A stretch of 64,000 nt of DNA from Pseudomonadota bacterium (GTDB lineage Bacteria; Desulfobacterota; Desulfarculia; Desulfarculales; Desulfarculaceae): assembly GCA_018819925.1 (NCBI GenBank), contig JAHJPG010000122.1:1-64000 (forward strand), written 5' to 3'. A program made the position numbers and the translations under genes. Below the pieces are notes generated by a model. The model worked only from the letters and a program-made list of their open reading frames with translations. It was not told the origin of the DNA and did no database searches. The number at the start of each line of letters is the position of its first letter. The stretch's first letter is position 1. Below are positions 1,822 to 21,618 of this stretch, piece after piece.

Positions 1822-3741
1822 ATGCGGATTTTGGTGATCAACCCGCCCCTGGCCAGCCCGGCGGCGGCTCCTGGCGCGGCTCCGAGGGTCGCCACGATCC
1901 TGGCCGGGCTGGAGCCATTGGCGGTGTGGGACGCCAACTTGGCTTTTTGGAACCAGCGCCTGCTTGCCGGCTCGGCCGCCGAGGCGGCCCGGGTGTTGCG
2001 GGGGCCACGGTTTTATGAGCCCGCGCCGTATCTGGCCGCCCGTAAAAACCTGGAGGAGCGCCTGATCCAGGCCGGCCAGGAGTTGGCCCCGGGGAGCTAC
2101 GGCTTCACCGGGCTGAACCACCCCTCCGTCTTGGACCTGGAGAGCCTGCTGGCCCGGGCCCGGGAAGCCGACGGCCCCCTGGGCGCATGGGCGGCTGGCG
2201 AACTGACCGAGCGCCTGCCCCAAGGTGAAAAGGCCCTGGTGCTGCTGTGCCTGGAGACCCCGGGTCAGTGCCTGGGGGCGGCGGTCATGGGACTGTGGCT
2301 CAAACGCCACCGCCCCGAGGCGGTGGTGGCCCTGGTGGGCGGCTGCCTGGAGCAGGCCGGCGCCCCGTCCGGGCCCGGCCCGGCCTGGGACCATGCCCTT
2401 TCGCCCATGGACTCCGGCCCCCTGCGCGATTTGGCCGCCTCCCTCATGGGCCAGGCTCCCCGCCAAGACCGCTCTTTTGAGTTGGGCGCTTTTCCCCCGC
2501 CGGAAGGCTACCTGAGCCCGGCGCCGGTGGTGTCGCTGAGGCCGGTGATGGGCATGGATCTGGTGCGCGAGGACCCGCGCGATCCGGGCATGGCCGCGCC
2601 GCGCTTCATTGAAGCGGGCCGCTTGGTGGAGTTGCTCAATCAAATGGCGGGGCGGGGGGCGGCCGGGGCTTTGCTGTTGAACCAGGAGATGCCCGCCGCC
2701 TTCTTGGAGAGCCTGGCCGGCGTGTTGACCCCGGGCGGGCCGCCCCTGGCCTTGGCCGCATCCCTGGAAGATTCCCCTTCGCCCCAGGCCCTGGCCGCCT
2801 TGGCCCGAGGCGGGGTGCGCCTGGTGCATTGGAGCCCGCCGTCCGGGGCCGAACCGGACCCTGACCCGCTCCTGGCCGCCGCGCAAAAAACCCTGGTCGC
2901 CGCCTCCCGGGCCGGGCTGTGGAACCATCTGGAGTTGCCCGCCGAGGGGGCCGATCCCCTGGCCCAGGCCCTGCTGGACTTCATCGGCTCCAACCCCCAG
3001 GTGGTGCATTCCTGGTCCCGGCCCACCCCCTGGCCTTGGTCGCCCCGGCCCATCAGCCACGTCGGCGAGCCCAGGGCCGAAGCCTACCGCCAGGTGACCC
3101 CCTTGCCGGGCGGCCCCCTGTGGCGCAAGCTGGCCGCCCCGGCCCACCTGCTGCTCTATCTGGAGCGCCACGGCCGGGAGGCGGTGCGCCACTGGCGGGT
3201 GCGGCCCGATGGCGAGAGCTCCTATGGCCTGGGGGAGAATCTGCGCTACGTGTTTGCCGAGCCCAAGGAGATCGGCCCGGAGATATTGGAAGAAATCGCC
3301 CTGTTGGTCTTGGCGGCGGGCAAGGTGAAGCCCCAATGGCTGCGTTACAACCTGGCCAACGCCTACCTGGTGGGCTACGCCGAGGAGGAGGGGGTGATCG
3401 TGGGCACCGACACCCTCAAGCGGCTCAGGCCGGAGTACATAACCAGCATCAAGGAGCAGACCGGCTTGGACCTGACGGGCTATACCGAGCGCGGCTACAT
3501 CTCCATCCGCCCTGAGTACCGGGGCACCGGGGTGGGCAACGCCCTGGTGCAGGGGGTCATCGCCCGGGCGGGCGGGCGCAAGATGTTCATCATCACCGGA
3601 TCTGACAACCTGGCCGGGCAAAACCTCTTGGCCCGCAACAACACCCGGCGGGTGCGCACCTATTTCAGCCAGCGCCTTAACAAGCCCATGCAGATTTGGA
3701 TGCCCCAGGACCAAGACCCGGAGCTGGGAGAGGAAAAGTGA
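1822..3741 (+). CDS. Degenerate B12-binding/radical-SAM-like region fused to a GNAT acetyltransferase
   Basis: 639 residues. The N-terminus (MRILVINPPL) and the layout of residues 1-430 resemble cobalamin-binding radical SAM proteins, but the CxxxCxxC cluster motif is absent; the only N-terminal cysteines are scattered. The C-terminus (about 490-625) is a GNAT fold with the acetyl-CoA pyrophosphate loop YRGTGVG near 565-571 and a late Asn/Arg-rich helix (ARNNTRR). The ATG at 1822 has GGGAG five to six bases upstream; an in-frame ATG at 1759 and a GTG-class codon at 1738 are less well supported. The gene ends 4 bp before an ATP-grasp ligase, so the two are probably co-translated. The N-terminal assignment is inference; the GNAT call is firm. 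Substrate unknown. Confidence 0.75.
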   Translation: MRILVINPPLASPAAAPGAAPRVATILAGLEPLAVWDANLAFWNQRLLAGSAAEAARVLRGPRFYEPAPYLAARKNLEERLIQAGQELAPGSYGFTGLNHPSVLDLESLLARAREADGPLGAWAAGELTERLPQGEKALVLLCLETPGQCLGAAVMGLWLKRHRPEAVVALVGGCLEQAGAPSGPGPAWDHALSPMDSGPLRDLAASLMGQAPRQDRSFELGAFPPPEGYLSPAPVVSLRPVMGMDLVREDPRDPGMAAPRFIEAGRLVELLNQMAGRGAAGALLLNQEMPAAFLESLAGVLTPGGPPLALAASLEDSPSPQALAALARGGVRLVHWSPPSGAEPDPDPLLAAAQKTLVAASRAGLWNHLELPAEGADPLAQALLDFIGSNPQVVHSWSRPTPWPWSPRPISHVGEPRAEAYRQVTPLPGGPLWRKLAAPAHLLLYLERHGREAVRHWRVRPDGESSYGLGENLRYVFAEPKEIGPEILEEIALLVLAAGKVKPQWLRYNLANAYLVGYAEEEGVIVGTDTLKRLRPEYITSIKEQTGLDLTGYTERGYISIRPEYRGTGVGNALVQGVIARAGGRKMFIITGSDNLAGQNLLARNNTRRVRTYFSQRLNKPMQIWMPQDQDPELGEEK

Positions 3742-3745
3742 GACC

Positions 3746-4621
3746 ATGCGCCTGGCGGTGATAAGCGTGCAAGGGGAGGGCTACCACCCCAACCGCCGCC
3801 TCTTGGAGGCCGCCGCCGCCCGGGGCCTGGACTTGGCGCTCATGCATCCTTTTCATACCTGGTGCGCCCTGACCGAGGGCCGGGCCGGGCTCTTGGACGG
3901 GCGGCCCGTCCCCACCGTGGCCCTGCCCCGGGTGGGCTCCACCATCAGCCCCTACACCCTGCTTTTGCTGCGCCACCTGGAGCTGATGGGCTGCCGGCTG
4001 GTAAACCGGCCCGGGCCGGTGGAGTTGGCCAGCCACAAGGACCGCTGTCTCCAGGTGATGGCCGGGGCTGGCCTGACGGTGCCCGACACGGTGTTCCTAA
4101 ACCGTTCCGAGGCCTGGGAGGCGGCGGTGGAGCGCCTGGGGGGCTACCCCCTGGTGGCCAAGCTGCCCCAGGGCCGCCAGGGGCGGGGAGTGGCTCTGAT
4201 AAGAGACGAAACCCAAGCCCAATTGGCCCGCCGGCTGTGGCTGCGCCAGCGCAGAGGCTTGTTATTGCAGCGCTATCTGCCCACCAGGGGGCGGCGGGAC
4301 CGGCGGGTGCTGGTGGTGGGAGGCCAGGCCGTGGCGGCCATGGAACTGACCCCGCCGCCGGGAGAGTTCCGGGCCAACGTTCACCTGGGGGGCCGCCCAC
4401 GGGCCATCGACCCCGCCGGGGAGGCGGCCCGCCTGGCCGTGGATGCCTGCCGCGCCCTGGGCCTGGATGTGGCCGGGGTGGATTTGGTGCTGGACGGTCG
4501 AGGTGTGTATTATGTTATGGAAGTAAACCACTCCCCCGGCTTTCAGGGCCTGGAGGAGGCCACCGGCCTGGATGTGGCGGGCCTTATCGTGGACTGCGCC
4601 CAGCAAATGGCGGGAGAGTAA
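3746..4621 (+). CDS. RimK-like ATP-grasp carboxylate-amine ligase
   Basis: 291 residues with the ATP-grasp fold of RimK/GshB-type ligases: a pre-ATP-grasp domain (1-95), the nucleotide-binding LVAKLPQGRQGRGV loop near 135, the LLQRYL hinge near 175, and the metal-binding end motif YYVMEVNHSPGF near 260. Such enzymes form peptide-like bonds between an acyl-phosphate and an amine. The start lies 4 bp after the GNAT-fusion stop. The pairing suggests that one enzyme ligates and the other N-acetylates a small peptide or amino-acid conjugate, as known for other ATP-grasp/GNAT pairs such as N-acetylglutaminylglutamine amide synthesis. The product cannot be predicted here. Transcription probably ends before the AT-rich region downstream. 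Confidence 0.85.
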   Translation: MRLAVISVQGEGYHPNRRLLEAAAARGLDLALMHPFHTWCALTEGRAGLLDGRPVPTVALPRVGSTISPYTLLLLRHLELMGCRLVNRPGPVELASHKDRCLQVMAGAGLTVPDTVFLNRSEAWEAAVERLGGYPLVAKLPQGRQGRGVALIRDETQAQLARRLWLRQRRGLLLQRYLPTRGRRDRRVLVVGGQAVAAMELTPPPGEFRANVHLGGRPRAIDPAGEAARLAVDACRALGLDVAGVDLVLDGRGVYYVMEVNHSPGFQGLEEATGLDVAGLIVDCAQQMAGE

Positions 4622-6516: not shown

Positions 6517-7488
6517 ATGAGGAAGTACGTACTTAAACGCCTGGCGCAGGTGATGGTGATCCTGTTTTGCATCCTCACCATCCTCTTCGTCCTGTTCCGC
6601 CTGGCCCCGGGAGACCCGGTGTCGCGCCTGGTGGACCCGGAGATGACGCCGGAAGAGTCCCAGCACCTCATCGAGCAGCTGGGCCTGGACCAACCCATTT
6701 GGAAGCAGTACCTCATTTACCTGAAGAACTGCAGCACCGGCCAGTTCGGCTATTCCATCCACTATGGCGAGCCGGTGGCCAAGGTGATCTGGGAGAAGCT
6801 GCCCAACACCGTCTTGCTTTTCACCACCGCAGTGCTGCTCTCGGCCATGGTGGGCATATCCTGGGGCAAGATAGCCGCCTGGCGAAAGGGCAAGGCCACC
6901 GATTTGGGGCTGACCATAGCCGCCTTGGTTACCCACACCCTTTTCTTGCCCTGGCTGGCCCTGCTCTTGGTATGGGTCTTCGCCTACCAGTTGGGCTGGT
7001 TCCCCATCACCGGCATGGTCTCGGACGAGGTCTGGATGGACCCCGAGGCCGGCTTTTTCACCCGGGCGGTTGACGTGGGCTATCACATGGTGCTGCCGCT
7101 CACCACCCTGTTCCTGATTCACTTCGGCAGCTACCTGCTGGTGATGCGCTCCTCCATGCTGGACACCCTCAAAGAGGATTACATCGTTTTGGCCCGGGCC
7201 AAGGGCCTCAGCGAACGGGACATCCGCAACAAGCACGCCGCGCCCAACGCCTGGTTGCCGGTGGTGACCAGCGTGGGTCTGTCCCTGGCATTTTCCATCA
7301 ACGGCGGGGCCCTGACCGAGACGGTGTTCTCCTGGCCGGGCATCGGCCGGGAGCTGGTGTTCGCGGTGAGCCACAACGACTATCCCCTGGCCCAAGCCTC
7401 CTTCTTGTTGATATCCACGGTGGTGCTGTTGTCCAACGTGGTGGTGGACGTGCTCTACGCCTACCTGGACCCAAGGATCAGGTACTAG
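6517..7488 (+). CDS. ABC transporter permease, DppB-like
   Basis: 323 residues with the N-terminal membrane helix (LAQVMVILFCILTILFVLF) and RLAPGDP motif that mark DppB/OppB-type permeases. A central BPD_transp_1 domain has the EAA-like loop (residues about 220-245, ARAKGLSERDIRNKHA), which contacts the ATPases. About six membrane segments are visible. It forms the pore with the next permease. It lies 37 bp after the binding-protein gene and 3 bp before the second permease. Confidence 0.93.
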   Translation: MRKYVLKRLAQVMVILFCILTILFVLFRLAPGDPVSRLVDPEMTPEESQHLIEQLGLDQPIWKQYLIYLKNCSTGQFGYSIHYGEPVAKVIWEKLPNTVLLFTTAVLLSAMVGISWGKIAAWRKGKATDLGLTIAALVTHTLFLPWLALLLVWVFAYQLGWFPITGMVSDEVWMDPEAGFFTRAVDVGYHMVLPLTTLFLIHFGSYLLVMRSSMLDTLKEDYIVLARAKGLSERDIRNKHAAPNAWLPVVTSVGLSLAFSINGGALTETVFSWPGIGRELVFAVSHNDYPLAQASFLLISTVVLLSNVVVDVLYAYLDPRIRY

Positions 7489-7491
7489 AGC

Positions 7492-8421
7492 ATGGAACAG
7501 ACCACTATTAAGAGCCTAAAGGCCAAGCGCCGCGCCCTGTGGCGCCAGCGCTTCATGGAAAACTGGCGGGTGTTTTTGCGCAACCCCCTGGGCCGGATCG
7601 GCATGTCCCTGCTGGTCATGTTCGGGCTCATGGCCATCTGCTCCTACATTCCGCCCATGATCAACCCCATGTACCACCCCATGACCGGGGTGGACCCCGA
7701 TGTGGTTTCCTCGGTGGGCCCCAGTTGGCGTCACTGGCTGGGCACCGACTTCATGGGCCGCGACATCTTCAGCCAACTCCTGGCCGGGGCGCGGGTGGCC
7801 TTTTTGGTGGGCGTCTCCGCCGCCTTCATGTCGGTGGTGCTGGGCACCGCGGTGGGCATGACCGCCGGCTACATGGGCCGCTTCACCGACACCGCCCTGA
7901 TGCGCCTGGCCGACATGATAATGGTTTTGCCCACCCTGCTGGTGGTGCTGATGCTGGCCGCCCTGTTCGGCAAGCTTTCCATCTGGATGATCGTGTTGAT
8001 GATCGCCCTGTTCCGCTGGCCCGGGGTCAGCCGGATAATCCGGGCCCAAACCCTCAGCCTGAAGCAGCGGCCCTTCATCGACGCGGCCCGGGTGTCCGGG
8101 GCCGGCCACCTGCGCATAATCTTCCGCCACATCATGCCCAACGTGCTGCCCCTGGCCTTCCTCTACATGACCTTCAGGGTCACCAGCGCCATCGTCATCG
8201 AGGCGGGGTTGGCCTTTTTGGGCTTCGGCGATCCGGGCACGGTGAGCTGGGGCATGATGCTGCAATGGGTGTGGAAGACCGGGCACATGTTCCAGGCGCC
8301 CTATTGGCTGCTGCCCCCGGGCATATGCATCAGCCTCATCACCCTTTCCTTTTACATGCTGGGCCGGGCCATGGACGAGGTCTTGGACCCCCGGCTGCGC
8401 GACGAAACCCAGGCAGGCTGA
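7492..8421 (+). CDS. ABC transporter permease, DppC-like
   Basis: 309 residues. The N-terminal cytoplasmic segment and single helix are followed by the DppC signature HWLGTDFMGRDIFSQLLAGAR near residue 80-100, then five membrane helices. The EAA-type loop AARVSGAGHLRIIFRHIMPN is near 200. It pairs with the DppB-like permease. The gene begins 3 bp after its partner's stop and ends 2 bp before the first ATPase ATG, which indicates tight translational coupling. Confidence 0.93.
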   Translation: MEQTTIKSLKAKRRALWRQRFMENWRVFLRNPLGRIGMSLLVMFGLMAICSYIPPMINPMYHPMTGVDPDVVSSVGPSWRHWLGTDFMGRDIFSQLLAGARVAFLVGVSAAFMSVVLGTAVGMTAGYMGRFTDTALMRLADMIMVLPTLLVVLMLAALFGKLSIWMIVLMIALFRWPGVSRIIRAQTLSLKQRPFIDAARVSGAGHLRIIFRHIMPNVLPLAFLYMTFRVTSAIVIEAGLAFLGFGDPGTVSWGMMLQWVWKTGHMFQAPYWLLPPGICISLITLSFYMLGRAMDEVLDPRLRDETQAG

Positions 8422-8423
8422 TC

Positions 8424-9377
8424 ATGGCGCTTTTGCAAGTGGAAAACCTGGGCATCGGCTACCAGACCGCCAAGGGCCTGTTGAAGGCGGTGGACGGGGT
8501 GAGCTTCACCCTGGAGGCGGGCCGCTCCCTGGGCCTGGTGGGCGAGAGCGGCTGCGGCAAGACCACCATCGGCATGGCCCTAATGGGGCTCTTGCCGCCC
8601 AACGGCCGCATAATCGAGGGGCGCATCGTCTTGGACGGCATCGAGATCAGCGCCCTGGACGAGGACGAGCTGCGCAAGGTGCGCTGGAGCAAGGTGGCCA
8701 TGATCTTCCAGGCCGCCATGAACGCCCTCAACCCGGTCAAGCGCATCAGCGCCCAGATGGCGGAGGCCATTCAGGTCCACCGCCCGGAGGTGGACGATAG
8801 CGCGGCCATGGAGCGGGTGGAGGGCTTGTTCAACCTGGTGGGCCTGCCCCTGGAGAGACTCTACGATTTTCCCCACCAGTACAGCGGGGGCATGAAGCAG
8901 CGGGCCATCATCGCCATGGCCCTGGCCCTGAACCCCAAGCTGATAATCGCCGACGAGCCCACCACCGCCCTGGACGTGATAGTCCAAGACCAGATTCTCA
9001 AGGAGACCAAGGCGCTGCAGGAGAAGTTCAACATCGGCATCATCTTCATCAGCCACGACATCTCCATCGTGGCCGACGTCTGCCACGACATCGGGGTGAT
9101 GTACGCCGGCCAACTGGTGGAGATGGGCTCGGCCAAGGATGTGTTCTTCAATTCCCAGCACCCTTACACCCAGGCCCTGGTCAGCTCCTTCCCCACTCTG
9201 GCCGGCCCCAAGACCAAGCTGGCGCCCATTCCCGGCGAGCCGCCCAACCTCACCGGCGCCATCCCCGGCTGCCGCTTTTGCGACCGCTGCCCCAAGGACA
9301 CCGCTTCCTGCAAGCTGGAGCATCCCAAATGGCAGGAGGTAGGCCCCGGACACCATGTGTTGTGCGACCATTGCTGA
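8424..9377 (+). CDS. ABC transporter ATP-binding protein, DppD-like
   Basis: 317 residues. Walker A GESGCGKTT (about 37-45), Q-loop IFQ, signature YSGGMKQR (about 152-159), Walker B LIIADEPT and switch His in ISHD are all intact. The C-terminal oligopeptide/dipeptide transporter domain carries the CRFCDRCPKDTASC cysteine cluster near 285-300, which binds an Fe-S cluster or metal in some DppD/DppF proteins. The ATG at 8424 follows the permease stop by 2 bp. It would power import jointly with the next ATPase. Confidence 0.93.
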   Translation: MALLQVENLGIGYQTAKGLLKAVDGVSFTLEAGRSLGLVGESGCGKTTIGMALMGLLPPNGRIIEGRIVLDGIEISALDEDELRKVRWSKVAMIFQAAMNALNPVKRISAQMAEAIQVHRPEVDDSAAMERVEGLFNLVGLPLERLYDFPHQYSGGMKQRAIIAMALALNPKLIIADEPTTALDVIVQDQILKETKALQEKFNIGIIFISHDISIVADVCHDIGVMYAGQLVEMGSAKDVFFNSQHPYTQALVSSFPTLAGPKTKLAPIPGEPPNLTGAIPGCRFCDRCPKDTASCKLEHPKWQEVGPGHHVLCDHC

Positions 9378-9395: not shown

Positions 9396-10448
9396 ATGAA
9401 CGAGAGCCGCGAGAATAAAACCATTCTCCAAATGGAGGGGGTGAGCAGGTTCTATCGCACCCGGGGCAACGTTTTCCGGGGCGGGGGGCGGCTGGTTGTG
9501 GCCCTCAGCAAGATCAACCTGTCCCTGCGCCAGGGGGAAATCTTCGGCCTGGTGGGCGAAAGCGGCAGCGGCAAGACCACCTGCGGCCGGCTCATCGTAC
9601 GCCTGGAGGAGCCCGACGAGGGGCGCATCACCCTGGGCGGCGAGGACATCACCCACCTCAAGGGCAAGCGGCTCAGGGAATACCGCCGCCAAGTGCAGAT
9701 GGTCTTTCAGGACCCTTATCAATCTTTGAACCCCCAGGTGACCATCGCCGACAGCGTGGCCGAGCCCCTGATAACCCACAAGGTGGGCGACCCCCTGGAC
9801 CATTTGGAGCGGGTGCTCAGGGTGCTCAAGACCGCCGGACTCAGCCCGCCGGAGGACTATGTCTACCGCTTCCCCCATCAGTTGAGCGGCGGGCAGCGCC
9901 AGCGGGTGGCCATCGCCCGGGCCATCGTCCTGGAGCCCAGCCTGTTGGTGGCCGACGAGCCCACCAGCATGCTGGACGCCTCCTACTCGGCCCAGATCTT
10001 CGAGATTTTGCAGGGGGTGCGCGACAAGCTGGGGGCCACCATCATGTTCATCACCCACAGCATGGCCTCGGCCCGCTACCTCTGCGACCGCATCGGGGTG
10101 ATCTACCGGGGCCATCTGGTGGAGCAGGGCCCGGCCGAGCAGGTGATAAACGCGCCCAAGCACCCCTACACCAAGGCCCTGATAGACGCCACTCCCAAGT
10201 TCGGCCGCTCCGAGCTGGTGCCCACCTACGGCACCTTGCTGGCCGCCGAGCGCCCGGCCACCTCCAGCGCCGGCTGCCCCTTTTTCCGGCGTTGCGCCCT
10301 GGCCGAGCGCCTGCTCTGCGCCGGCAGCTATCCCCCGTGGCGCCAGGTGGGGCCACGGCAGGTGGCGTTATGCCACTTCGCCCAAGAGGAGGTCCCGCCG
10401 CCCCCCCCGGCTGAAAATGCCGCCCGGGGGGAGACTGGCGCTCCCTAA
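9396..10448 (+). CDS. ABC transporter ATP-binding protein, DppF-like
   Basis: 350 residues. Walker A GESGSGKTTCGR, Q-loop FQDPYQSLNP, signature LSGGQRQRVAIARA, Walker B LLVADEPTSMLDAS and the H-loop THS are intact. An insertion near residue 25 (NVFRGGGRL) is typical of DppF proteins, which pair with DppD. A C-terminal CPFFRRCALAERLLC cysteine patch mirrors its partner. It is the last gene of the operon; no clear intrinsic terminator follows. Confidence 0.93.
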   Translation: MNESRENKTILQMEGVSRFYRTRGNVFRGGGRLVVALSKINLSLRQGEIFGLVGESGSGKTTCGRLIVRLEEPDEGRITLGGEDITHLKGKRLREYRRQVQMVFQDPYQSLNPQVTIADSVAEPLITHKVGDPLDHLERVLRVLKTAGLSPPEDYVYRFPHQLSGGQRQRVAIARAIVLEPSLLVADEPTSMLDASYSAQIFEILQGVRDKLGATIMFITHSMASARYLCDRIGVIYRGHLVEQGPAEQVINAPKHPYTKALIDATPKFGRSELVPTYGTLLAAERPATSSAGCPFFRRCALAERLLCAGSYPPWRQVGPRQVALCHFAQEEVPPPPPAENAARGETGAP

Positions 10449-13826: not shown

Positions 13827-14562
13827 GTTCCGCCGCCTTTTCCGGGTAGACCCGGCGGTAGCCGGAGTCGGCGTAGAGGTCCTTGTTCAGCTCCATCTGC
13901 ACCGCCACCGCGCCCCTGGCCCGCAGCAAGGGGCCGTAGTGGGCGACGATGTGACCCCCGAAGTAGGGAGTGTTGTAGGCCACGCTGAGGCCCTCGGCCT
14001 CCAAGGCCTGGCCCAACAGGCGCAGGGACCTTGGGGGGCAGGTCACTTCGCCCCGCCCGGGGGCCGGTTCGCCGCCCGGGCCGCCCCGGTTGCCCAGCAC
14101 CACGTCGGCCCGCCGCGTCCCGGGGTCAGGCGCCTCGGCCGGACCCACTCCGTCCAGGGAGTGGCCATCCAGCAGGGCCACCACCCCGGGGGCCTCCAGG
14201 GCCAGGGCCAGGGACCGGTGCCAGGGACGCCAGAAAAGCTCCACCCATTGCCGTTTGAGCGCATCGTCCGGGGCCTGGCCCGGGGCGAACACCGCCCGTC
14301 CGGCGTAGTCGGCGGCGGCCACCACCCCCTTGGGCCCCAGGTCCTCACAGGAGCGGTTCAGGTCGGCCACCAGGCGGGTATGGGGGGCGGGCAGCACCCT
14401 TAAGGCCGGCAGGGGCCCAAAGACCTCGCTGGAGCCCAGGTCCACCGATTGCTCCACCTCCAGGGGGCCCAGAGCCAGATAGCCGGCGGCCTGGGGGGGT
14501 AGCGCGTCCGAGCAATGGGGCAGGGTGATGACCAGGGGAAGGAGCGCTCCGGGCTTAGGCAT
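13777..14562 (-). CDS. N-formylglutamate amidohydrolase family protein
   Basis: 261 residues. The family's conserved features are visible: an N-terminal proline-rich strand, LVADLNRS near residue 67, the ALLDGHSLDG motif near 130 (usual form D-x-H-S), an AVQMELN strand near 220 and an R-Y-P-like end. These enzymes hydrolyse N-formyl- or related N-acyl-glutamate-like amides, using a metal. The ATG overlaps the end of the upstream GshB-like gene by 8 bp, so the two are co-translated. No histidine-degradation (hut) gene is nearby, which makes the classical role unlikely. The 3' end overlaps the convergent cNMP-binding gene. Confidence 0.82.
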   Translation of the reverse strand: MPKPGALLPLVITLPHCSDALPPQAAGYLALGPLEVEQSVDLGSSEVFGPLPALRVLPAPHTRLVADLNRSCEDLGPKGVVAAADYAGRAVFAPGQAPDDALKRQWVELFWRPWHRSLALALEAPGVVALLDGHSLDGVGPAEAPDPGTRRADVVLGNRGGPGGEPAPGRGEVTCPPRSLRLLGQALEAEGLSVAYNTPYFGGHIVAHYGPLLRARGAVAVQMELNKDLYADSGYRRVYPEKAAELSRRLNRALEWALSRW

Positions 14563-15550
14563 GTCCCTTGAGCCGGCGGACCTGCTCCTCCACGAAATCT
14601 ATGACCTGGGCCTCGATCTTGATGCCTTCCAGGCGGTTGATGCGCGGGATGCCGCCGGGGCTGACCACGTTGATCTCCACCAGCTTGTCGCCGATGATGT
14701 CCAGTCCCACGAAGTAGAGCCCGTCGGCCATGAGGCGGGGGCGTATGGTGGCGCAGATGCGCCGGTCGCTCTCGCTTATCTGGTGCTTGGCCGGGCTGGC
14801 CCCGGCGTGGATGTTGGTGCGGAAGTCGCCCTCGGCCGGTATGCGGCGCATGGCCCCCAGGATCTCCCCGTTCAACAGCAGGATACGCACGTCGCCGTGC
14901 TGTTTCACCTCGGACAGGTATTCCTGCACCATGATGGCTTCGCGTTCGGGGTAGGGCTTGTAGGAGTTCACGTAGTAGTGGATCAGGCTGTTGAGGTTGT
15001 CGCGGTCCTGGCTGCTGACCTTGATGACCCCCTCGCCCCGGGAGCGGCTAAGGGGTTTCACCACCATGGCTCCGCCGAATTCGTCGATGATCTTGCGCAG
15101 GCGCTTGGGATCGCGGCTGACGTGGGTTTCGGGGATGATGCTTGGGAAGTTGAGCAGATAGAGCTTGCTGCTGGCCAGCATCTGGCCGGTGGTGCTGTTG
15201 ATGGTGAACACGTCGCCGCGGACATGGTGCAGGTATTCCAAGGTCTGGTAGTTCAGGGGAGGGTCTTTGCGCAAGAACAGGGCGTCGATGTCGGTGATCT
15301 CTTCGAAGATGAGCTCCTCGCGCTTGAGGCAGGCGAGGGCGTTGTCCCAGTAGGCCCGCATGGTCTGGCCCGGCGGCACGCTGACGTTGCGCATGCGGGC
15401 CACCAGGCGCGAGCCGCGCACGTAGACGTCGTGGGGTTCCAGAAAAAAGACCGTGTGCCCCCGCTGGTTGCACTCGTACATCAGCCAGCTGGTGGTTTCG
15501 TTTTCCGGCTCGATGGACTCCAGGGGGTCCATCATAAAGGCGATGATCAT
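14555..15550 (-). CDS. Glutathione-synthetase-like ATP-grasp ligase
   Basis: 331 residues. The N-terminus (MIIAFMMDPLESI) matches the GshB start motif. An ATP-grasp core follows, with the VVKPLSRSRGEGV nucleotide loop near residue 165, MVQEYL near 205, the RRIPAEGDFRTNIHAGAS segment near 235 and the terminal metal-binding VEINVVSPGG near 290. GshB joins gamma-glutamylcysteine to glycine; no gshA is in the window. Coupling to a formylglutamate-amidohydrolase-type enzyme suggests a peptide-like or glutamyl metabolite, possibly not glutathione. The ribosome-binding site is weak. About 160 bp of featureless DNA lies upstream. Confidence 0.85.
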   Translation of the reverse strand: MIIAFMMDPLESIEPENETTSWLMYECNQRGHTVFFLEPHDVYVRGSRLVARMRNVSVPPGQTMRAYWDNALACLKREELIFEEITDIDALFLRKDPPLNYQTLEYLHHVRGDVFTINSTTGQMLASSKLYLLNFPSIIPETHVSRDPKRLRKIIDEFGGAMVVKPLSRSRGEGVIKVSSQDRDNLNSLIHYYVNSYKPYPEREAIMVQEYLSEVKQHGDVRILLLNGEILGAMRRIPAEGDFRTNIHAGASPAKHQISESDRRICATIRPRLMADGLYFVGLDIIGDKLVEINVVSPGGIPRINRLEGIKIEAQVIDFVEEQVRRLKGHA

Positions 15551-15712: not shown

Positions 15713-17260
15713 TCAAGGCACCGCGAAAATTTCCACCGGCTGGCTGCGTCCCTTGACCATGGTGGCGCTGATGCGCTCCAGGGCCACCCCTTGGCCCAGG
15801 GCGGCGGCGGTGGTTCCGCTCACCAGGATGTCGCGGCCCGTGACCTTGGTCATATCCTGTAGACGGGCGGCCAGATTCACCGTGTCTCCAACCAGGGCGT
15901 AGGACAGCCTGCCGCCGCCGCCGATGTTGGCCGCCAGGGCCGGGCCGCTGTGGATGCCGATGCCGTGGCGCAGGGGGGAGTGCCCGGTGGCTATTAGGCG
16001 GGCGTTATAGGCGGCCAGACGCCGCCGCATGGCCCGGGCTGCCTCCACGGCGTGGCGGGGGTGGTCCGCCAGGGCCAGGGGCGCGCCGAACACCGCCTCG
16101 ATTTCATCGCCTATATATTGCAGCACCAGGCCGCCGTGCTCCTCCACGGCGGCGGCCATGTGCTGGAAATAGCCGTTGATAACCACCACCACCTCCTTGG
16201 GCGGGGTGGCTTCCACCAACGGGGTGAAGTCCCTCAGGTCGCTGAAAAGCATGGTGACCTGCTTGATCTCGCCGTCCAGGGGGATGCGCCCGGCCAGGAT
16301 CTCGTCGCGCACCTGCTGGCTTACGTACAGGCCAAAGGCGTCCTTGATGCGTTCGCGCTCGGCCAACCCCTCGGTCATCTGGTTGATCATGTCGGCGGTG
16401 TAGCCTATCTCGTCGTTGGCCATCACCTGCACCCGGCTGCCGAAGTCGCCGCCGCGCACCTTGCTCAACCCCCTGACGATTTCGCGCAGGGGCCGCACCA
16501 TGTTCACGGTGACCAAAGAGGCCAGGCCCACCGCGTTGACCATGAAAAGCAGGCACAGCACCACCACCGCGGCCTGAAGGTCGCCCAGCACCTCGGCCGG
16601 TGGCATGGCGCCCTCCTGCACCAGGCGGGCCGAACCGCGGATAGTGAAGATGATGGCCAGGAAGGGAATCATGCAGGCGCCCAGGAGCAGGCCGGCCATG
16701 CGATAGCCGATGCGGATGCGCCAGGCGCCGCGCACCCGGGAGAGCCCGCCCCCGGGAAAAAACACCGGGGCCAGGAGATGCTGCAGTAGGTGTTCCAGCA
16801 AAAAGAAGGCGGTGGCCACAGTGATGGCCCCCACGAACAGCGAACGAAGGGCCATTACCCCGGTGAGGTGGAACAACACCGGCAGCCGGGAAAGAACCAG
16901 AGGGAAGACCAGGGTGGCCAGGCCCCAAAGGAACAGGTTAAGGCCCACGGCCACCCAGGGTTCGTTGAGCAGGCGGCGGCGGGCTTGCTCCTTCAGTGCC
17001 GGGCTGGACTGGCGGCCCTGGGCCAGGTCGGCCAGGTGGCGGCGGATGGGCCGCTCCCAGGTGAGCAGCACGCCGATTCCCACCGTGAAGGCGAAAAGGT
17101 CGTAGATGATGATCAGCCACATGATTTCCGGGGTGCGGGGTAGACGGATCATGTAGGCCCATCGGTCCAGGGCCGCCATGAGGGCCACCCCCATCAGGTT
17201 GGCCAGCAAGTTGCCCAAGAGCATGAGGTTGGCGAGAAAAAGGCGCTTGGCGCGGGTCAA
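15713..17260 (-). CDS. Membrane-bound class III adenylate/guanylate cyclase with HAMP linker
   Basis: 515 residues. About six hydrophobic helices span residues 10-270, then a HAMP-like linker (MVRPLREIVRGLSKVRGGDF, near 260-280) and a C-terminal catalytic domain from about 335. The metal aspartates are present (LFSDLRDFT; YIGDEIEAVFGAP), as is the GDTVNLAARL transition-state motif. The usual substrate-selecting lysine before the GD motif is Gln here, so nucleotide choice is uncertain. The TTG start has GGGGAGG upstream. The gene lies 21 bp after a metallo-hydrolase gene and is probably co-transcribed with it. Confidence 0.88.
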   Translation of the reverse strand: MTRAKRLFLANLMLLGNLLANLMGVALMAALDRWAYMIRLPRTPEIMWLIIIYDLFAFTVGIGVLLTWERPIRRHLADLAQGRQSSPALKEQARRRLLNEPWVAVGLNLFLWGLATLVFPLVLSRLPVLFHLTGVMALRSLFVGAITVATAFFLLEHLLQHLLAPVFFPGGGLSRVRGAWRIRIGYRMAGLLLGACMIPFLAIIFTIRGSARLVQEGAMPPAEVLGDLQAAVVVLCLLFMVNAVGLASLVTVNMVRPLREIVRGLSKVRGGDFGSRVQVMANDEIGYTADMINQMTEGLAERERIKDAFGLYVSQQVRDEILAGRIPLDGEIKQVTMLFSDLRDFTPLVEATPPKEVVVVINGYFQHMAAAVEEHGGLVLQYIGDEIEAVFGAPLALADHPRHAVEAARAMRRRLAAYNARLIATGHSPLRHGIGIHSGPALAANIGGGGRLSYALVGDTVNLAARLQDMTKVTGRDILVSGTTAAALGQGVALERISATMVKGRSQPVEIFAVP

Positions 17261-20179: not shown

Positions 20180-21544
20180 CTATTTGAATCGTTGCTTGTC
20201 TTCCTCCAAGGCGTTCACGATATTGGCCGACACCTCGGGCAGCTTCCAAAGGATGCGCTCCCAGGAGGGCAGGTGGCGCACTTCCAGGGACTCCTCCCTG
20301 AGCCTTTCCTCCAGGCGCAGGATGGTCTGTTGCAGGCCCTGCTCCACGAAGGGTTTGAATTCCTCGTGGGAAGCGGTGAAGCGCAGCATCTTTTCCGCGA
20401 TGTGGGAGGGGGCGGTCAGATGATCCCCGGTCTGCACGATGGCCCGGGAGAGCACCTCGTAGACCATTTTCTCCTCGGTGTCGCGGTCGTACTTGAGGTT
20501 ATTGAACTCGGCGTTGTCCGAGTATTTCTTGATGATCTCCTCGGCGATGGACTCGTAGGTGAGCGCCAGGTCGCGGAAGAACTCTTCGCCCACCTCCAGG
20601 CCCTCCTCCACGATCAGCGCGTGCAGCAGGGTCTGGATGATGTCCAGGGACATCTTGTGCAGCCCGCTCTTGGGGTCGTCGGTGCTCACCCGCTGGTGCT
20701 TGTGGTCAAAGCTCTTGCGGGTGAACTCCACCTGGGCCACGTGGGAGGCCTTGCGGTAAACCTCGATGAGGGTGAATATCTCCACTCCCCAGTCCAGGGA
20801 ATAGCGCATCTTTCTGAGCAGCCACATGTCCAGGCAGACCTCGCCGGAGAGCTGGTAGTCGAAGCTCAACAGGAAGTCCACCAGCCTGAGCATCTTCTCT
20901 TCGCTGCCTTCGCTGAACTTGCGCTTCAGGGCCAGCAGCAGGGGGTCCAAAAGCAGGCGCTTGACCCGCCCAAAGAGGCGCTGGCCGTTCCAGCGGGCGT
21001 AGAAGGCCTTGGAGAAGGCATAGTTATGCACCAACACCGGATAGAAGAGACGGTCCAACTGGCGGCGCTGAAAGGTCTTGATGTCCGCGTCCAACAGGCC
21101 CACGCAGGTGGCCCCCAGGGCCATGGCCACCCCGAAGGCCATGAACACGTTGCGCCCCTTGCCCCGGCGGGAGAGGTCGAAGCCGCCGTCCTCCTCCAGC
21201 ATCTTGTAGATTCCGCTAACCGCCGGGCCGTCGTTCCACTGGATGATGTAGTTGTTGAGCCCGCGCTCCTGGCAGATATTGATGCACAGGCGCACGTCGT
21301 CCTCGCTGGCCTGGTCCAGGCCGAAGATTACATGGGCCAGGTACTTGGCTCCCGCCAACTCCTCCACGATGTTTTCGAACACCGGGCGGTTTTCCGGATC
21401 GGTGAATTCGCTGGCCAGGGCGGGCACGATGAGCACGGGCTTTTTCCAGCGGGCGGCGTGCGCCAGTTGCTGGAGGATGTCCTGCTTGTCCTGCAGGACA
21501 TAATAGGTGGTGACCCGGTTGTGAGTCTGGGCAAAGCTGGGCAT
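20180..21544 (-). CDS. GpgS-like family 2/81 glycosyltransferase
   Basis: 454 residues. The N-terminal half looks like a GT-A nucleotide-sugar-binding domain with the metal motif LLDADI near residue 145 and a VFMAFGVAMALGATCVG helix before it. This is the layout of glucosyl-3-phosphoglycerate synthases, which make the precursor of the compatible solute glucosylglycerate. The C-terminal half is helical and charged. The ATG at 21544 has AAGGAG eight bases upstream and is preferred to an earlier in-frame start. Mannosyl-3-phosphoglycerate-type or other sugar-acid products remain possible. No matching phosphatase gene is adjacent, although an inositol-phosphatase-family gene lies 1.6 kb away. Confidence 0.65.
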   Translation of the reverse strand: MPSFAQTHNRVTTYYVLQDKQDILQQLAHAARWKKPVLIVPALASEFTDPENRPVFENIVEELAGAKYLAHVIFGLDQASEDDVRLCINICQERGLNNYIIQWNDGPAVSGIYKMLEEDGGFDLSRRGKGRNVFMAFGVAMALGATCVGLLDADIKTFQRRQLDRLFYPVLVHNYAFSKAFYARWNGQRLFGRVKRLLLDPLLLALKRKFSEGSEEKMLRLVDFLLSFDYQLSGEVCLDMWLLRKMRYSLDWGVEIFTLIEVYRKASHVAQVEFTRKSFDHKHQRVSTDDPKSGLHKMSLDIIQTLLHALIVEEGLEVGEEFFRDLALTYESIAEEIIKKYSDNAEFNNLKYDRDTEEKMVYEVLSRAIVQTGDHLTAPSHIAEKMLRFTASHEEFKPFVEQGLQQTILRLEERLREESLEVRHLPSWERILWKLPEVSANIVNALEEDKQRFK

Positions 21545-21618
21545 ATATGGGCGTCTCCTTGGCGCGGCAAACTCGCCGCCTACCCCTGAGGCCTGCACGC
21601 CCCTGCCGGGGCGGCTCT

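Follow-up and report, generated by a model that had tools for sequence, protein, structure and literature searches.

A predicted pseudoenzyme derived from cobalamin-dependent radical SAM (rSAM) proteins, fused to an acetyltransferase of the GNAT family, is encoded in the 64,000-nucleotide stretch analysed here (hereafter the window; positions 1 to 64,000 of contig JAHJPG010000122.1, assembly GCA_018819925.1). The fusion gene belongs to a conserved cluster with two ATP-grasp ligases, one RimK-like and one glutathione-synthetase-like (GshB-like). Our best explanation, to which we give a probability of about one half, is that the cluster would make an N-acetylated peptide by means of its two ligases and the GNAT, and that the dead rSAM-derived domain is kept as a non-catalytic module for binding or presenting the substrate. 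The combination of ligases, GNAT, oligopeptide transporter and cyclic-nucleotide components in several families of the phylum points to a new small peptide metabolite; the novelty lies in the retention of a pseudo-radical-SAM domain within such a conserved cluster.

Organization of the locus

The source genome is a 4.03-Mb assembly of 145 contigs, 96% complete, whose named near relatives are metagenome-assembled genomes of the Desulfarculaceae. The features of the locus are listed in Table 1. A gggaga sequence lies a few bases upstream of the fusion start codon, and the start is further backed by the homologue at locus L021, in which a stop codon directly precedes the equivalent methionine. 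The RimK-like ligase gene begins 4 bp past the TGA of the fusion gene, as an earlier sequence-only reading of the window had stated. Homologues of the peripheral acyl-CoA ligase (63-85% identity) occupy the same upstream position in the genus and in G010, and this neighbour was not seen at the other loci examined. Farther along, the gene at 20183-21598 (-) scored below threshold against mannosyl-3-phosphoglycerate synthase (25.5 bits for a cut-off of 27); it may serve a compatible solute and has no relation to the cluster.

Table 1. Features of the fusion gene and its neighbours in the window.
Feature	Position	Strand	Evidence or remark
Acyl-CoA ligase (AMP-binding), 512 aa	73..1611	+	Pfam PF00501 E 6.4e-84; peripheral
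Degenerate cobalamin-rSAM/GNAT fusion gene, 639 aa, ATG start	1822..3741	+	AlphaFold2 pLDDT 85.2, pTM 0.85
Fusion residues ~1-215, B12-binding-like Rossmann domain	1822..2466	+	Profile aligned with the intact family over its full length; strands and helices alternate in model
Fusion residues ~216-263, linker at the site of the CX4CX2C loop of intact relatives	2467..2610	+	All three Cys absent; low model confidence
Fusion residues ~264-410, rSAM barrel remnant	2611..3051	+	SAM-motif residues lost; W337, W367, H369, H396, S397 kept
GNAT domain and lead-in (core ~506-604)	3172..3738	+	Pfam PF00583 28.6 bits; acetyl-CoA loop R567-G-T-G-V-G by alignment
RimK-like ATP-grasp ligase, 291 aa	3746..4621	+	Pfam RimK E 1.6e-34, Rimk_N E 2.8e-7; NCBIfam rimK_fam 186.4 bits
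Oligopeptide-type solute-binding protein (SBP_bac_5), 582 aa	4731..6479	+	Pfam PF00496 E 6.9e-71; conserved neighbour
Opp-type permease 1	6517..7488	+	Conserved neighbour, 62-94% identity
Opp-type permease 2	7492..8421	+	Conserved neighbour
Opp-type ATPase D, within ORF 7539-9377	8421..9377	+	Conserved neighbour
Opp-type ATPase F	9396..10448	+	Pfam ABC_tran and oligo_HPY
TLC (ATP/ADP translocase-like) membrane protein with HEAT repeats, 914 aa	10530..13274	+	Pfam TLC E 1.7e-9, HEAT_2 E 1.1e-11; conserved
Cyclic-nucleotide-binding protein, 175 aa	13299..13826	+	Pfam cNMP_binding E 6.1e-21; conserved
Glutathione-synthetase-like ATP-grasp ligase, 331 aa, distinct clade	14555..15550	-	Pfam GSH-S_ATP E 1e-55, GSH-S_N E 3.2e-20
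HAMP and class III adenylate/guanylate cyclase	15716..17260	-	Pfam; many relatives have homologues within or next to the cluster

Origin of the N-terminal region

Taken alone, the fusion protein yielded no rSAM match in Pfam, NCBIfam or PDB sequence searches; Acetyltransf_1 at residues 506-604 was its sole Pfam match, and no rSAM or B12 family scored. The likeness to cobalamin-dependent rSAM proteins that the sequence-only reading had perceived became detectable only when the N-termini of ten degenerate fusions were aligned (alignment A2) and the resulting profile was searched across 395 genomes of the phylum. This profile matched proteins of ~500-560 residues with E down to 1e-19, and nearly all of the matches inspected carry the motif CX4CX2C (GCYWGKCAFC and similar). 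An end-to-end hhalign comparison of A2 with 18 intact cobalamin rSAM members scored 99.93% (E 1.4e-35, 418 columns), as against 0.3% for a negative control with the unrelated GshB-like alignment.

The solved structures nearest to the intact family profile are those of the cobalamin-dependent rSAM enzymes AprD4 (6fd2), TsrM (6wte), OxsB (5ul2) and TokK (7kdx), which have the same two-domain layout and show a relationship by descent recognisable from end to end; the fusion differs from them by the loss of the cluster cysteines and SAM residues and by being joined to a GNAT. Because the matches that Foldseek listed for the model of the entire fusion were all to GNATs (down to E 1e-7), the N-terminus was folded separately, which gave a Rossmann-like domain followed by a partial barrel (pLDDT 81.5). 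The best solved match of this model, and the only one below E 1e-3, was the rSAM protein MtaB (E 3.3e-4, with a modest TM of 0.37), a predicted likeness that is supportive, not strong. On the strength of the profile comparisons, the N-terminal ~450 residues are assigned to descent from a cobalamin-type rSAM protein.

Lost and retained residues

The CxxxCxxC motif is missing, as had been noted earlier; since bona fide relatives carry CX4CX2C, that absence alone is insufficient to call the protein dead. The fusion protein has three cysteines, at positions 143, 150 and 175, and both CX3CX2C and CX4CX2C are missing from all three plus-strand frames between 2400 and 2750. None of the three cluster cysteines survives in any of the 10 aligned fusions or in L081, and the segment opposite the CX4CX2C loop is deleted or unalignable in the degenerate forms. 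The losses extend to the SAM-binding residues of the barrel: the window protein has substitutions or deletions at the equivalents of G436, E438, K450, G451 and G478 of the intact protein L079, and the equivalents of W341 and F346 of L079 are likewise lost. An assembly error or frameshift behind the missing cysteines was ruled out by ten further independent genomes and by the three-frame check. A relocated intact copy was also discarded, the source genome (96% complete) holding no intact family member elsewhere; its other matches to the family profile are mainly to the generic barrel and reach at most 84 bits. Judged by its residues, the N-terminus of the fusion has lost those needed for catalysis and is predicted to be non-catalytic.

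Other residues have been kept. W337, W367, H369, H396 and S397 are retained in 9-10 of the 10 degenerate sequences; they are common to the cluster-borne intact proteins L079, L080 and L082, and rare or absent in other rSAM relatives. The Rossmann part keeps PP8-9, D37, Q149, P165 and G173 of the intact family, and this retention, together with the cyclase and cyclic-nucleotide-binding genes in or beside the cluster, would suit a dead domain that has kept the ability to bind cobalamin or some other cofactor and that tunes the GNAT as a sensor connected with the adenylate cyclase and the cyclic-nucleotide-binding protein. We consider such a sensor quite improbable, the window protein having no PF02310 match and even intact L079 reaching 23.8 bits for a cut-off of 32.1.

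Intact relatives

An intact counterpart is found in two distant genomes (G380 and G240) as a 772-residue fusion of an intact Radical_SAM domain (PF04055 E 1.4e-18; GCYWGKCAFC) and the same C-terminal GNAT. It adjoins the same RimK-like ligase, GshB-like ligase, solute-binding protein, permeases and ATPases, and in a third genome (G081) an intact rSAM protein without a GNAT lies beside the same ligases and transporter. Because intact versions share the gene cluster, the window fusion is regarded as the degenerate version of an enzyme borne by this cluster rather than as a chance look-alike. Sequence comparison identifies the intact rSAM-GNAT of G380 and G240 as the predicted ancestral form. The NCBIfam models closest to it are mainly those of cobalamin rSAM methyltransferases, all below their cut-offs, for which reason the ancestral rSAM reaction was probably a methylation-type change.

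Two further rSAM genes were observed at related loci. In G380, a SPASM-type radical SAM protein (L079:7417-8529, -) adjoins the intact rSAM-GNAT gene. G433 has another, unlike but intact, rSAM protein (L112:9686-11419, +; CHYRCRFC, CX3CX2C) between a stand-alone GNAT and the ligase, as if replacing the lost domain.

Distribution and selection

The whole degenerate fusion is present in 8 of 8 genomes of the genus, in two further genera of the family (G008 and G010) and in another family (G365). The sequence-only reading had staked itself on the rSAM likeness and on conservation of the gene pair outside the source genome; both were examined and both were found, the pair recurring in the genus, in other genera and in other families. 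The ligase tree places all degenerate forms in one set (95/99), compatible with a single loss of catalysis, while the GNAT tree requires three label changes.

The domain is not kept everywhere. Part of the barrel is missing in G002, G003 and G010, G355 retains a short relic only, and GNATs devoid of any rSAM-derived domain occur in genus g7, G020 and family f87; in genus g7 and G020 the homologue is a lone GNAT of ~200-255 residues followed by the same transporter. Between pairs of genus members, dN/dS (Nei-Gojobori, hence rough at this high G+C) came to 0.33-0.68 in the Rossmann part, 0.26-1.0 in the barrel part and 0.15-0.47 in the GNAT, and reached 1.58 in the former cluster loop; values for the dead regions were mostly 0.3-0.7 and mostly below 1. 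By these estimates, the dead domain is under constraint, though relaxed.

Erosion towards loss is a fair reading because the domain evolves faster than the GNAT, has shrunk further in the four genomes just named and is missing from the GNATs of some relatives. The main rival explanation is accordingly one of neutral erosion, i.e., the rSAM reaction would have become dispensable and the domain would be disappearing stepwise, with no present function beyond sparing the GNAT fold. Besides the relaxed dN/dS in the barrel and in the former loop and the domain-less GNATs, it draws on the size series across genomes, which runs from the intact form (772 aa) through the cluster-less form (639 aa), forms with an internal deletion (~535-600 aa) and a short relic to the GNAT alone (~200 aa). 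We nevertheless hold it to be rather unlikely, as the reading frame is open, free of frameshifts and stops, in 11 of 11 degenerate fusions spanning three genera of the family and a second family, as the residues W337, W367, H396, S397, G430, P432 and W434 of the subfamily are invariant in 10 of 10 degenerate sequences, and as most of the dN/dS values stay well under 1. Moreover, lone GNAT genes need not derive from fusions, since in the GNAT tree they do not nest within the degenerate group, G192 excepted. A role in binding or presenting a substrate would suit the conservation of non-catalytic residues and the uninterrupted frame, and retention for such a role appears more likely than passive erosion by about two to one. 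As intact, dead, internally deleted and missing forms share their gene context, the role of the dead domain is testable by swapping or removing one module.

A two-ligase cluster

The conserved cluster comprises the GNAT with or without the rSAM-derived domain, the RimK-like and GshB-like ligases, the oligopeptide ABC transporter, the TLC-HEAT transporter, the cyclic-nucleotide-binding protein and, often, an adenylate cyclase. The coupling of ligase and acetyltransferase put forward by the sequence-only reading is conserved, but the system is larger than a pair, extends to both sides and contains a second ATP-grasp ligase. The acetyltransferase proposed for the C-terminus of the fusion is borne out by both its fold and its R-x-x-G-x-G loop (PF00583 above its cut-off of 20.7 bits; RGTGVG at 567-572).

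The GshB-like ligases form a clade set apart by score (at least 545 bits in 25 genomes, as opposed to at most 273 in 16 genomes for the other GshB of the phylum). Among the 395 genomes, 21 hold the GNAT and 25 the GshB-like clade; the two occur together in 20 genomes of seven families, 5 genomes have only the GshB-like clade, and 1 has only the GNAT (Fisher p 5e-28, without correction for kinship). In the sole genome with the GNAT and no member of the GshB-like clade (G383; L107/L115), the GNAT copy is broken by three in-frame stops. The idea that loss of the GshB-like ligase is paired with loss of rSAM activity was dropped, the gene being present in the window and in all members of the genus.

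Alternatively, the locus could serve ordinary glutathione or peptide salvage: the GshB-like enzyme would be a genuine glutathione synthase using gamma-glutamylcysteine or fragments of glutathione brought in by import, and the RimK-like ligase and the GNAT would act on proteins. The GshB-like protein does exceed the cut-off of one glutathione synthase model (NF003573, 277.9 vs. 272), while falling below two others (TIGR01380, 262.2 vs. 299; NF009110, 295 vs. 408), and an oligopeptide importer adjoins. However, neither family of gamma-glutamylcysteine ligase (PF04107, PF04262) was found in the source genome (96% complete), which argues against plain glutathione synthesis, and the GshB-like clade is separate from the other GshB of the phylum and travels with this GNAT. 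Salvage is in our opinion improbable.

Homologues of the cyclase lie in or beside the cluster at seven loci (L025, L026, L028, L079, L080, L081 and L111) and adjoin the GshB-like gene at four (L127-L129 and L132), and such cyclases number only five in the source genome. Cyclic-nucleotide control of the cluster is possible from this arrangement.

The presence of two ligases from peptide-forming families, together with an acetyltransferase and an oligopeptide transporter, is suggestive of an acetylated short peptide, either synthesised and transported or taken up and then modified; the cluster probably builds and transports a small peptide. In the mechanism that we propose, the GshB-like and RimK-like ligases would link amino acids to form a short peptide, and the GNAT would acetylate the amino end of this peptide or acylate an intermediate. 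Transport of the product or a precursor by the oligopeptide transporter and the TLC-HEAT protein would be controlled by cyclic nucleotides. Ancestrally, the GNAT-fused cobalamin-type rSAM domain may also have altered the substrate, possibly through C-methylation. The window lineage would have lost this chemistry, and the eroded domain would stay on, binding or presenting the substrate to the GNAT or holding the enzymes together. That all these elements hold at once, i.e., that a pseudoenzyme fused to a predicted working acetyltransferase presents the substrate in an undescribed, cyclic-nucleotide-controlled two-ligase peptide pathway of which the active ancestral form is alive in other families of the phylum, is advanced tentatively.

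Comparison with known systems

Elp3 unites radical SAM and GNAT domains in one chain, rSAM first and GNAT last. The fusion has the same domain order; in contrast to Elp3, its rSAM part is of the cobalamin type and its neighbours are peptide ligases and transporters, and no Elp3 model was among the Pfam and NCBIfam matches of the window protein or of intact L079. In the osmolyte pathway leading to N-acetylglutaminylglutamine amide (NAGGN), a GNAT and an ATP-grasp domain make an N-acetylated dipeptide. The pairing of these two domains is common to NAGGN synthesis and the window cluster, but in the latter they are on separate chains, the rSAM, GshB-like and Opp components are additional, and the RimK-like ligase scores far below the N-acetylglutaminylglutamine synthetase model (TIGR03103, 30.3 vs. 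a cut-off of 569). As to the osmolyte pathway that the sequence-only reading had envisaged, nothing in the cluster points to it. Iyer, Aravind and colleagues reportedly predicted amidoligase/GNAT metabolite systems in 2009; clusters of ATP-grasp and acetyltransferase genes making small peptides embody the same idea.

The literature searched, to which this 2009 work did not belong, contained no description of the cluster, which is apparently undescribed, and no retained rSAM protein devoid of the cluster and SAM residues; radical SAM proteins that plainly lack catalytic residues and are retained nonetheless are little documented.

RimK-family ligases include the RpsF glutamate ligase and enzymes of poly-alpha-glutamate formation (PMC12239564). 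The window ligase has Rimk_N and RimK domains, in keeping with its earlier description as RimK-like, and exceeds the cut-off of the RimK subfamily (rimK_fam, 143.4 bits). It differs from RpsF-type RimK in its ties to a GNAT, a GshB-like ligase and an Opp transporter, and it falls below the equivalog cut-off for RpsF ligases (151.9 vs. 331 bits). Directly after the RimK-like ligase, two distant families encode a conserved protein of ~380 aa with no Pfam match (L081:1498-2769, -; L111:14676-15815, +), with the motifs NPHAFLVGC and PALHF.
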